Positions 7,271 through 55,960 of a stretch of DNA of 64,000 bases are shown here, piece after piece. The notes beneath the pieces are model-generated. The model was not told the origin of the DNA, searched no databases, and saw only the letters and a program-made list of their open reading frames with translations. This DNA comes from Rhodococcus marinonascens NBRC 14363 (GTDB lineage Bacteria; Actinomycetota; Actinomycetes; Mycobacteriales; Mycobacteriaceae), in the NCBI RefSeq assembly GCF_001894885.1, contig NZ_BCXB01000011.1, positions 62,001 through 126,000 of the forward strand, written 5' to 3'. Positions within the stretch are counted from its first letter, which is position 1; each line of letters opens with the position of its first letter. The translations under genes were made by a program, and so were the position numbers.

Positions 7271-8331
7271 TGCCACGAAGCGCTCTCTCTTTCCTCTGGT
7301 GTCTCGGCCACGGTTTCCTCTAGTGTCTCCGCCACGGTTTCCTCTGGTGTCTCCGACATGGTGCTCCTCACGGAACCCTGATCGGGGTCTTTGGGGAGCT
7401 GTTCGAAAACGGACGCAAGCTTGCCTGCGTGGTGTGTGTGTGTGCCGTGTTCCGACACGTCGGCGTAGACGACGCGTGCACGAAGCTGCCCGGCGGCACG
7501 GGCGAGATGCTCGCGTTCGCGTCCCTGCGGGACAGAACCCGAATCCACCACGACGAAGTCGACGGTCAGTTCGGGGGCGTGTTGGGACAGTATGTGGAGA
7601 TGACGCTCGGTGGAGAAGCCTGCGGTCTCGCCCGGCTCGGGGGCCAGGTTGAGCACCAGCACCTTCCGTGCTTCCGTGACGATCAGGGCGTCGAGGAGAT
7701 CCGGCACCAGGACATGCGGAATGACACTGGAGAACCACGATCCGGGCCCGAGGACGACCATGTCCGCAGCGGCGATTGTCTGAACCGCATCGGGGCACGC
7801 CGGCGGATTGGCCGGCAACAGTCGTACCCGGCGCACCTTGCCCGGAGTGGTCGCGACCGCGACCTGTCCGCGGATGCAGCGGCTGACTCGCGGGTCAGCC
7901 TCGAGACCCTGCACGTCCGCCTCGATGTCGAGGGCGATCGGCGACATCGGCAGGACGCGCCCGTTGATCCGCAGCAACCGTGCGAGTTCATCGAGCGCGG
8001 CCACAGGGTCACCAAGGACTTCGGTGAGGCCGGCAAAGATGAGATTTCCGACCGAATGCCCAGCCAGGGCACCGATTCCGCCGAAGCGGTGTTGAATGGT
8101 CTCCGTCCAGTCCCGCACGTCGGGGTCATCCGCAGCGAGTGCGGCGAGCGCCATCCGCAGATCACCTGGTGGGATGACACCGAGTTCGGCGCGGAGGCGT
8201 CCCGACGATCCCCCGTCGTCCGCGACGGTGACCACAGCGGTGACATCACGGCTGAGTCGCCGCGCCGCGCTGAGGGTGGCGAACAGTCCGTGTCCCCCGC
8301 CGAGAGCAACGATCGCAGGCACAGTCTTCAT
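7267..8331 (-). CDS. yvcK: YvcK/CofD-like regulatory protein (gluconeogenesis factor family)
   Basis: YvcK proteins have a CofD-like fold, bind UDP-sugars, and in Bacillus, Listeria and Mycobacterium influence cell-wall synthesis and growth on gluconeogenic carbon. The nucleotide-binding ALGGGHGL is at residues 9-16 and [12 protein letters not shown] at about 37-48. The conserved core ends near residue 315. The C-terminal tail holds three copies of an eight-residue [12 protein letters not shown] repeat encoded by 24-base units at 7290-7361. The tail is unlikely to be part of the fold. The ATG overlaps the rapZ stop, and its own stop overlaps whiA, giving the conserved rapZ-yvcK-whiA coupling. 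Confidence 0.93.
7290..7361. repeat. 24-base tandem repeat, three units, in yvcK
   Basis: Three consecutive 24-base units start at 7290, 7314 and 7338 and differ from each other at only a few positions. Read on the minus strand each encodes an acidic, Thr/Glu-rich octapeptide, at about residues 324-347 of YvcK. The unit is divisible by three, so gain or loss of copies keeps the frame. Confidence 0.93.
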
Positions 8332-9242
8332 TCGCGCCCCAGATCGCGATGGACCACACGCACGTTGACCCCGGAGTCCTTTCCGAGGCGGCCCGCCAGT
8401 GCCTCCGACATCGCGACACTGCGATGTTTACCGCCGGTACAACCCACCGCGATGGTCATATAGCGCTTTCCTTCCCGACGATATCCCGCGATCGTCAGAT
8501 CCAGCAGATGGTGATAGGTAGCGAGGTAGTCCTCGGCACCGTCCTGGGTCAACACGTAGTCCCGCACGTCCGCACTCTGCCCGGTGCGCGGCCGCAGCTC
8601 GGGGATCCAGTACGGATTGGGCAGGAACCGGACGTCGCAAACGAGATCGGCGTCCATCGGGAGACCGTACTTGAAACCGAACGACTGAACTGTTACTTGC
8701 ATCGTCCTATTGCCGGCCTCACCGAACGCGTCCTCGATCTTTTTGCGCAATTGGTGCACGGCCAGAGAGGACGTGTCGATCACCAGGTCTGCAGCCGCCT
8801 TCACCTTCGCTAGTTGATCGCGCTCCGCGGCGATGCCCTCAGAGAGCGTGCCCTCCGCTCCGCCACCGGACAGTGGGTGGCTGCGACGGACCTGCTCGAA
8901 TCGGCGTACCAGGACCTCGTCGGAGGCGTCGAGGTAAAGCACCCGCGTATGCACCGGCTTGCTCTCCAGTTCGACAAGGACAGAGCCGAGGTCGCCGGTG
9001 AACAACCTGCTGCGCACGTCGATGACGACGGCGAGGCGTTCGAGCCGGGAATCTGATTCCAGACTCAGATCCACCATCCTGGAGATCAGTTCCGGGGGCA
9101 GATTGTCCGCAACATACCACCCGAGATCCTCGAGGACGTTCGCCGCAGTCTGCAGACCCGCTCCCGAGAGGCCGGTGACCAGAAGAAAATCCATCCGCCG
9201 AACCGTGTGTGTGCTGTTGTTCCGCGCATGCTGCTCGTTCAC
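8328..9242 (-). CDS. rapZ: RapZ-family nucleotide-binding protein
   Basis: RapZ (YvcJ) proteins have an N-terminal P-loop-like domain and a C-terminal domain. In E. coli RapZ is an RNA adapter controlling glucosamine-6-phosphate synthase; the actinobacterial role is unsettled. The C-terminal GCTGGKHRSV motif and the DNLPPELI and DVRSR blocks are intact. The N-terminal loop reads GLSGAGLQT, with Leu where relatives have Lys or Arg. The GTG at 9242 has GGACAGG upstream and gives 304 residues, close to the 301 of M. tuberculosis; ATG at 9194 is the alternative. It lies 34 bases after uvrC and overlaps yvcK by ATGA. Confidence 0.93.
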   Translation of the reverse strand: MNEQHARNNSTHTVRRMDFLLVTGLSGAGLQTAANVLEDLGWYVADNLPPELISRMVDLSLESDSRLERLAVVIDVRSRLFTGDLGSVLVELESKPVHTRVLYLDASDEVLVRRFEQVRRSHPLSGGGAEGTLSEGIAAERDQLAKVKAAADLVIDTSSLAVHQLRKKIEDAFGEAGNRTMQVTVQSFGFKYGLPMDADLVCDVRFLPNPYWIPELRPRTGQSADVRDYVLTQDGAEDYLATYHHLLDLTIAGYRREGKRYMTIAVGCTGGKHRSVAMSEALAGRLGKDSGVNVRVVHRDLGRE

Positions 9243-9276
9243 TCGACACCTGTCCGTTGCGAAGCGTTGTGTCCCA

Positions 9277-53805: not shown

Positions 53806-55611
53806 CTACTTCTCGATCCCGCCGGCGGATCCGCCCGCTGCCTCGCCCTTCGGTTCGGGCGTGGTGTCAACGCCCGATTCCTTGCGTTGCTGGGCGGTGA
53901 TCGGAGCCGGTGCGGACGTCAGCGGATCGACGCCGCCACCCGACTTCGGGAAGGCAATGACTTCACGAATCGAGTCGACGCCGGCCAACAGTGCGGTGAT
54001 GCGGTCCCAGCCGAACGCGATTCCGCCATGCGGCGGCGCACCGAAAGCAAACGCATCGAGGAGGAATCCGAACTTCTCCTCGGCCTCCTCGTGGGAGATG
54101 CCCATCACCTTGAACACTCGTTCCTGAATGTCCTTGCGGTGGATGCGAATACTGCCGCCGCCGATCTCGTTGCCGTTGCACACGATGTCGTAGGCGTAGG
54201 CGAGCGCCGAGCCCGGATCGGTGTCGAAAGTGTCGAACGACTCGGGCTTGGGTGAGGTGAACGCGTGGTGGACGGCGGTCCAGGCGCTGTAGCCGAGGGC
54301 GACGTCGCCACTGGCGGTGGCCTCGGCGGTGGGCTCGAAGAGCGGCGCGTCGACGATCCACACGAACGCCCAGGCGTCAGGGTCGATAAGGTTCCGCTTG
54401 TGGGCGATCTCACCGCGCGCGGCACCGAGCACGGCACGCGAGGACTTGGTCGGGCCGGCGGCGAAGAAGATGCAGTCGCCCGGCACCGCACCGACGTGCT
54501 TGGCCAGCCCGGCACGTTCAGCGTCGGTGAGGTTCTTGGCCACCGGGCCACCAAGGGTGCCGTCCTCGCCGACGAGCACGTAGGCCAGGCCCTTCGACCC
54601 GCGCTGCTTGGCCCACTCCTGCCAGGCATCGAGTTGCTTGCGCGGCTGACTCGCACCTCCGGGCATGACCACCGCACCGACGTACTCCGCCTGGAACACG
54701 CGGAAGGTGGTGTCCTTGAAGAACTCGGCACACTCGACCAGTTCGACGGCGAAACGCAGATCTGGCTTGTCCGATCCGTAACGTCGCATGGCCTCGGCGT
54801 ACGTCATCCGCGCGATCGGAGTCTTGATCTCGTGCCCGACGAGCTTCCACAGCGCCGACAGCACTTCCTCGGCGAGGAGGATCACGTCGTCCTGGTTGAC
54901 GAAGCTCATCTCGATGTCGAGCTGGGTGAACTCGGGCTGCCGATCCGCGCGGAAGTCCTCGTCGCGGTAGCAACGGGCGATCTGGTAGTAGCGCTCGATG
55001 CCGCCGACCATGAGCAGCTGCTTGAACAACTGGGGGCTCTGCGGCAACGCGTAGAAGCTGCCCGGCTGCAGTCGTGCGGGAACCAGGAAGTCGCGGGCGC
55101 CCTCCGGGGTCGAGCGCGTCAGTGTGGGGGTTTCGACCTCGACGAACTCGTGGTGCGACAGTACTGAACGGGCGGCCGCGTTGACCCTGGAACGCAATCG
55201 GATGGCTTGCCCGGGGCCTTCGCGGCGCAGGTCCAGATAGCGGTACTTCAGACGCGCTTCCTCACCGGCCTGGTCGTCGAGCTGGAACGGCAGCGGCGCG
55301 CTCTCGTTGAGAACTTCGAGTTCGGTGACATTGACCTCGATCGCACCTGTGTGGATCTCGAAGTTCTGGTTGCCCTCGGGACGAACCTCGACCACACCGG
55401 TCACCTTGACGCAGTATTCCGCGCGCAGGCGGTGGGCCTGCTCGGCGGCCGCACCCTCGCGGAACACCACCTGCGATACACCCGAGGCGTCACGTAAATC
55501 AATGAAGATCACCCCGCCGTGATCACGACGCCTGGCAACCCACCCGGTGAGGGTAACGGTCTGCTGGGCCTGCTCGGCTCGCAATGAACCGGCGAGATGT
55601 GTGCGGAGCAC
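53806..55611 (-). CDS. aspS: Aspartyl-tRNA synthetase
   Basis: The enzyme charges tRNA-Asp. The N-terminal OB fold ([20 protein letters not shown]) is followed by the class II catalytic domain with the block [18 protein letters not shown]-type regions, the bacterial GAD insertion and the final [16 protein letters not shown] flexible 30-residue tail ends the protein. The GTG at 55611 has AAAGGA upstream and gives 601 residues; the ATG at 55638 is discarded. It has its own 349-base upstream region. Confidence 0.96.
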
Positions 55612-55960
55612 GGGACTTCCTTTCGAAACATGAGGCAAGCTACTTCGTTGCTTGAGATCCTACGGAGACGCCCCGGGTGAGCGGAAAACGCATGCCGCTT
55701 CACTGGACGACCCGAGCCGCGCGCCCCTCAAAAGTCGCGCGAAGGCAACTACCCGTGACCCTCGACTACCCGTGACTCTCGACCCGTGACTCTCGACCCG
55801 TGACTCTCGACCCGTGACCCTCGACTACCCGTGACTCTCGACCCGTGACTCGTGACGAGGACTCGCGCTGTCCGGGCACGCGATCGCGATCGGAGTTGTC
55901 TCGGATGGCCTGCGCGGGTGGCCTGATTGTGCCGACTCTCGCATCTCCCCCCGATGTCGG
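55612..55960. other. Gene-free stretch with a second repeat array
   Basis: There is no gene between the aspS start and the universal stress protein stop. It must hold the aspS promoter. It contains the array at 55748-55850; no plausible frame spans it. Confidence 0.5.
55748..55850. repeat. 14/17-base tandem repeat, six units and a part, intergenic
   Basis: Units are ACCCGTGACTCTCG (14 bases) or the same with ACT in front (17 bases); they begin at 55748, 55765, 55782, 55796, 55810 and 55824, with a ten-base partial unit at 55841. One base (T or C before CTCG) varies. It is 130 bases upstream of aspS. Confidence 0.94.

Follow-up and report, generated by a model that had tools for sequence, protein, structure and literature searches.

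The stretch under study, called the window here, is 64 kb long (G000:C11:62001-126000) and belongs to a draft genome of Rhodococcus (G000; 4.92 Mb, 156 contigs). It carries seven arrays of short tandem repeats, five of them inside yvcK, priA, mltG, rarA and a gene for a PH-like protein, and two in intergenic DNA. Tandem Repeats Finder (TRF) returned 24 rows for the window, including all seven arrays of the original prediction, and the one first-order Markov control, a single shuffle of the window, contained no array under any of the three criteria used below. As had also been noted, the period is a multiple of three in all five coding arrays and in neither of the two main intergenic ones.

7290..7362, reverse strand: yvcK array, 24 bp x3.0 (TRF), in the C-terminal tail, residues 324-348 of 354
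23564..23672, reverse strand: priA array, 15 bp x7.3 (TRF), encoding TEPAV/TERAV in a linker, residues 124-160 of 702
33697..33767, reverse strand: PH-like array, 15 bp x4.7 (TRF), encoding DKTAL in the C-terminal tail, residues 162-186 of 206
46380..46492, reverse strand: mltG array, 15 bp x7.5 (TRF; a 30 bp x3.8 row scores higher), residues 77-115 of 551
51406..51480, reverse strand: rarA array, 15 bp x5, given by TRF as two adjoining 15-bp rows of x2.0 and x3.4
53612..53681, no strand: intergenic array, 14 bp x4.9 (TRF row at 53612-53679), between aspS and a gene of 391 aa at 52282-53457
55751..55851, no strand: intergenic 14/17-bp array, 14 bp x5.8 or 45 bp x2.3 (TRF), upstream of aspS, with aspS and a Usp gene as neighbours

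Mapping the coding arrays on the protein domains shows that four of the five lie at domain edges, as proposed earlier. In YvcK (TIGR01826), the array is downstream of the CofD/YvcK match (residues 7-311); in PriA (NF011454), it occupies the linker after the 3'-DNA-binding domain (20-114); in the PH-like protein, the bPH_11 domain (36-157) lies upstream of it; and in MltG, it forms part of an N-terminal tail, with the YceG domain at 221-539. RarA departs from this description: its domains are AAA, AAA_assoc_2 (215-316) and MgsA_C, and the array, which encodes LDQAD three times and LDETG twice at about residues 249-273 of 488, falls inside the AAA_assoc_2 span. The AlphaFold model of RarA (27 sequences; mean predicted local distance difference test score, pLDDT, of 70) has a helix at 234-265 and a low-confidence stretch at 265-275, and part of the LDQAD repeat is predicted, at falling confidence, to extend the helix rather than to form coil. 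In the solved RarA structure 3pvs, the region of the array aligns with gaps and corresponds to what we take to be the loop after the lid helix. The description of the peptides as rich in Glu, Thr, Asp and Pro fits YvcK and PriA, but not the PH-like protein (DKTAL), MltG (Gly/Tyr-rich) or RarA (LDQAD/LDETG).

The window was compared with six relatives, the nearest of which (G014; 4.44 Mb, one contig) has 86.6% identity across 54.7 kb of alignment with the window, the other five having 81-85%; among the 80 named RarA relatives kept, the closest is that of R. koreensis DSM 44498. One genome per species was used throughout, and all copy-number comparisons are between species. At most window sites the six relatives have fewer units, other repeats or none, the difference often being a whole number of units. 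Between flanking anchors, the priA site measures 109 bp in G000, 34 bp in G014 and 19 bp in the other five (+75 and +90 bp, whole units), the rarA site 75, 45 and 15 bp (+30 and +60 bp, whole units), and the PH-like site 71 bp as against 11 bp in all six relatives (+60 bp, four units). The yvcK site measures 73, 61 and 25 bp, so that G000 differs from the five relatives by 48 bp, again whole units, and from G014 by 12 bp, or half a unit. Across the protein set of the genus, the long RarA repeat occurs in G000 only; in G014 the insert is shorter and diverged, and RarA of three species further away (L014, L016, L024) carries additional residues peculiar to them.

The mltG site is 26 bp long in G014 and 146-203 bp in four other relatives, with different repeats, and one anchor is missing from G009; the tail of MltG in several relatives carries other Tyr-containing repeats, encoded by different DNA, which makes MltG the exception, deserving a closer look, to the neutral-looking unit divergence described below. 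Within G000, the MltG array (46380-46492) and an array at L203:4125-4175 both encode five-residue repeats of the GY/QQPGY type, and their DNA units share an 11-mer. As for the intergenic arrays, an alignable counterpart of the one at 53612 was sought in the six relatives and none was found, G014 lacking the array and two genomes lacking an anchor. In G007, G005 and G024, about 4.36 kb separates the flanks of 53612-53836, a stretch absent from G000 and G014 and so a difference in gene content. The array at 55751 is not in G014, and its anchors were not found in the other five relatives.

Outside the window, 791,240 bp of G000 were sampled, with arrays defined by a period of 10-60 bp, at least 2.8 copies and at least 85% match, and with coding and intergenic labels taken from a gene-calling script based on codon usage. 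The sample contains 32 arrays (4.0 per 100 kb), which bears out the expectation that they occur genome-wide. Coding arrays of at least 2.8 copies have a period divisible by three in every case (5/5 in the window, 11/11 in the G000 sample and 4/4 in a G014 sample), and the corresponding intergenic counts are 0/1, 7/19 and 0/5. The intergenic proportion (7/25) is not different from one third (p = 0.67), and the contrast between 20/20 and 7/25 (Fisher p = 3e-7) confirms the suspected enrichment of in-gene units for multiples of three. Selection on frame is in this way demonstrated statistically, with a caveat of ascertainment that is taken up below. Arrays are also about eleven times denser outside genes (17.7 per 100 kb) than inside them (1.6 per 100 kb).

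Elsewhere in G000, four sampled arrays were sought in the six relatives, and match coordinates gave clean length differences for two of them. One, a 16-bp x8 array, exceeds its counterpart in every one of the six by about 111 bp (seven units less 1 bp); the other, a 25-bp x5.5 array, exceeds G014 by 75 bp and the other five by about 122-126 bp. For the first L203 array, the coordinates give roughly 69 bp more in G000 than in G014.

Within the window, TRF adds some ten weaker repeats, mostly of two copies, to the original seven arrays. Two of them were followed in the relatives:

35565..35606, no strand: repeat at the pyrC edge, 20 bp x2.1 (TRF)
41687..41724, no strand: repeat at the boundary of aroB and the shikimate kinase gene, 17 bp x2.2 (TRF)

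The first site is longest in the nearest relative (42 bp between anchors in G000, 82 bp in G014 and 19-22 bp in the other five), and the second ranges in the relatives from an overlap of 29 (G014) to 38 bp of other sequence.

We compared the array density of the G000 sample with that of several other sets. Under the same criterion, the window has 6 arrays in 64 kb, the array at 55751 being left out because its best row is 45 bp x2.3. The G014 sample has 9 arrays in 400 kb and the R. koreensis sample 1 in 400 kb; a group that we label the R. koreensis-like clade (G005-G009 and G024, pooled) has 8 in 1.02 Mb (0.8 per 100 kb), six other Rhodococcus genomes (80 kb each) have 13 in 480 kb (2.7 per 100 kb), and 80 actinobacterial rarA loci, a few of them from Rhodococcus, have 24 in 1.54 Mb (1.6 per 100 kb). 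The excess of the G000 sample is 5.2-fold over the clade (p = 3.5e-6) and 2.6-fold over the rarA loci (p = 0.0006), where these and the following density p-values treat arrays as independent. With a near-perfect criterion, the excess over the clade, the other Rhodococcus and the rarA loci is 3.7-, 2.9- and 3.1-fold (p = 4e-5, 0.006 and 4e-5), and with both criteria together 5.4-, 2.5- and 3.7-fold (p = 3.5e-5, 0.04 and 9e-5). The window, which was chosen for its arrays, is a local high: the sample rate would give it 2.6 arrays and 0.89 coding arrays, and it has 6 (P = 0.048, uncorrected for that choice) and 5 (P = 0.002).

The units themselves differ from site to site. Nine units of the window, searched in 855 kb of G000 (about 17% of the genome), have 0 or 1 copies each outside their own array, and among 38 arrays of G000 a single pair shares a unit 11-mer. 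That many neighbouring units are identical holds in part: it is true of 9 of the 31 adjacent unit pairs found in 13 coding arrays from the window and the G000 sample. In 13 of the 16 coding arrays of G000 (three with indels were dropped), the units differ by 18 synonymous and 40 nonsynonymous changes, 16 of the latter from L207 alone; the synonymous fraction is 0.31, compared to 0.24 expected (p = 0.22), and a test of this low power does not tell unit divergence from neutral. In GC content and folding energy, the G000 arrays compared (16 coding, 20 intergenic) did not differ from matched random stretches. The arrays have stronger purine and GC skew (p = 0.0005 to 0.05 against a biased control of random stretches), from which we draw nothing because the composition of a repeated 15-mer is more variable than that of a random stretch of equal length. 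G000 and G014 also contain a separate class of long repeats (126-378 bp; L122:10528-11233, L143, L153 and L157), which falls outside the counts by its period and, as translated by eye, encodes 'VSVIDT'-like units.

Taken together, these observations make it probable that the arrays are minisatellites that arose at their own sites by slippage, and that they were filtered for reading frame and tolerated mainly in tails and linkers. Birth in place is preferred to spread because the units are mostly specific to their site. At each site a short stretch would have been duplicated, and its later growth or shrinkage would mostly have been in steps of whole units. Strand slippage or template switching in replication is the most likely molecular step; we infer it because the lengths mostly change by whole units, and the stages of 15, 45 and 75 bp at rarA in the five relatives, G014 and G000 support it. 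Between genes, any unit length would survive, while inside genes selection would remove lengths that break the frame. Most of the window arrays examined are placed in a tail, a linker or a loop, at points where additional residues are presumably tolerated. If the process continues, strains may still vary at these sites. The effect is real and seems, for the most part, an ordinary result of copying slippage.

Several observations weigh against this interpretation or narrow it. The frame count of 20/20 is partly ascertained, because a frame-breaking array would split the open reading frame and be counted as intergenic; two arrays at gene edges, neither divisible by three, were dropped from the G000 sample, and among its coding repeats of fewer than 2.8 copies, 13 have periods that are multiples of three and 2 of 15 do not. 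Not every length difference is a step of whole units, as seen in the half-unit difference from G014 at yvcK. L115 and L203, two of the four sampled arrays sought in the relatives, gave no clean reading. Nor are all arrays confined to one species or one site. The Lys/Ala-rich coding arrays L198:16485 and L117:6198 of G000 have counterparts with like units in G014 (L141:16100 and L140:4148), in a like place and in proteins of like length; because they are common to both genomes, some arrays are older than the split of G000 and G014. The 16-bp intergenic unit at L118:1748-1874 has a related unit in a non-orthologous place in G009 (L230:19151-19219) and a weaker match in G024. Units match on average at 91% within coding arrays and at 95% within intergenic ones, which suggests arrays that are fairly young, and not brand new. 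Finally, the density of multi-copy arrays in G000 is not significantly above that of the other Rhodococcus (1.5-fold, p = 0.28), nor, on any of the three criteria, above that of G014 (ratio 1.8-2.1, p = 0.09-0.11).

The best surviving alternative, which we regard as rather unlikely, is that the coding arrays are selected protein features, in the form of extended tails and linkers with a role in adjusting binding or spacing, as proposed for the amino-acid repeats of the archaeal Borgs. The Tyr-containing repeats of the MltG tail, present in several species in different DNA, agree with it, as do the QQPGY repeats encoded by a second G000 array (L203) and the Lys/Ala-rich arrays common to G000 and G014. 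However, YvcK, PriA, the PH-like protein and RarA have short, non-repeated sequence at these places in the five relatives, the divergence between units cannot be told from neutral, and intergenic arrays have a roughly eleven-fold higher density.

Another alternative, less likely still, places the cause of the raised density in a changed replication or repair gene that increases slippage, the candidate being the loss of a Pol IV-type DinB common to G000 and G014. In a PF00817 search, the best-scoring class of Y-family polymerases is present in 24 of the 28 genomes of the genus. G000 and G014, each of them 100% complete, lack it, as do two genomes that are 74-75% complete. A single shared loss is a correlate only and cannot show cause. 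Moreover, the density in G014 (10 arrays in 460 kb) is hardly above that in G005 (3 in 140 kb), which retains the class, and G020 and G013, which also retain it, have multi-copy densities similar to G000 in 80-kb samples. Mycobacterial DinB1 is described, in PMC9346131, as promoting homopolymer frameshifts; that role does not predict extra arrays of 14-24 bp once the enzyme is lost, and the missing class is no more than a candidate equivalent of DinB1. Loss of NucS, Ku or XseA is rejected as a cause, since NucS is an open frame of 227 codons in G000 and Ku and XseA are both present there. The RecG wedge model was uninformative in the genus: it matched 9 of the 28 genomes with E <= 0.001 and passed the cut-off in 4. 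An equally simple candidate for the raised density would be that selection is weaker in smaller genomes. The broader proposal of a Borg-like, lineage-wide burst of minisatellites, still under way and lengthening loops and tails of core proteins of replication and the cell wall (PriA, RarA, MltG), triggered by a replication or repair change common to G000 and G014 such as the loss of DinB, appears improbable.

Very little favours the seeding of the sites by a dispersed repeat family like the mycobacterial interspersed repetitive units (MIRUs). Several arrays have similar periods (14-17 and 24 bp) and a relative of the L118 unit recurs in G009, but the window units have next to no outside copies and no Rfam family matches the window at gathering scores; for the sampled 17% of G000, a common unit is rejected, as the units are, with few exceptions, unrelated. 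An artefact of the 156-contig draft is as implausible: short-read assemblies can misjudge repeat counts, but the window arrays are at most 113 bp long, their coding frames stay open, and the single-contig genome G014 shows arrays of the same kind.

Birth in place by slippage with filtering for frame can be set beside several known systems, and among the papers listed for Rhodococcus, tandem repeats and variable number tandem repeats (VNTRs), none has a title that concerns such arrays in Rhodococcus. Phase variation by simple repeats relies on units that switch the frame when their copy number changes; here all 20 coding arrays of at least 2.8 copies keep it. MIRUs of mycobacteria are a family of related units. 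The G000 arrays resemble MIRU loci as short tandem repeats in an actinobacterial chromosome, as the original prediction had suggested, but the likeness ends there: with few exceptions their units are unrelated between sites, no related unit recurs at many sites in the 855 kb searched, and several arrays lie inside genes. The original reading as a whole is thus supported in part. The arrays correspond more closely to bacterial VNTR or minisatellite loci, being direct repeats (about 10-60 bp) arranged in tandem more than chance would give, with head-to-tail units of 14-45 bp whose copy number differs between related genomes, here between species. Should strains turn out to differ, the window sites could be used for typing. 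Nearly all arrays that persist inside genes keep the reading frame, and some core proteins thereby acquire short repeated segments. With its contrast between G000, G014 and the R. koreensis-like clade, the genus is one in which the cause of unequal minisatellite density among close relatives can be sought.

The closest precedent is that of the archaeal Borgs. According to PMC9879509, Borg repeats within open reading frames all have unit lengths divisible by three, compared to 14-38% of intergenic ones; their units are virtually all unique, their sites are rarely conserved between close relatives, and they add amino-acid tandem repeats to proteins. The G000 arrays share the frame rule (20/20 coding, 7/25 intergenic, near chance), the uniqueness of units (one pair among 38 arrays sharing an 11-mer) and the rapid turnover. 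The same paper gives a mean of 46 perfect repeats per 0.83 Mb in Borgs, or 0.62% of bases. With the Borg cut-offs re-implemented, the G000 sample has 12 perfect arrays in 0.79 Mb (1.5 per 100 kb) that cover 0.138% of bases, about four times less dense than the Borg mean and below the range of about 0.3-1.0%, while the chosen window reaches 0.448%. Borg repeats are reported there to be enriched in A; the G000 arrays were compared by GC, which is like that of their surroundings. Borgs are archaeal elements, whereas the G000 arrays lie on a cellular chromosome. The frame rule reported for Borgs also holds in the parts of a bacterial chromosome sampled here. This suggests that slippage followed by filtering for frame could explain the rule without special elements.

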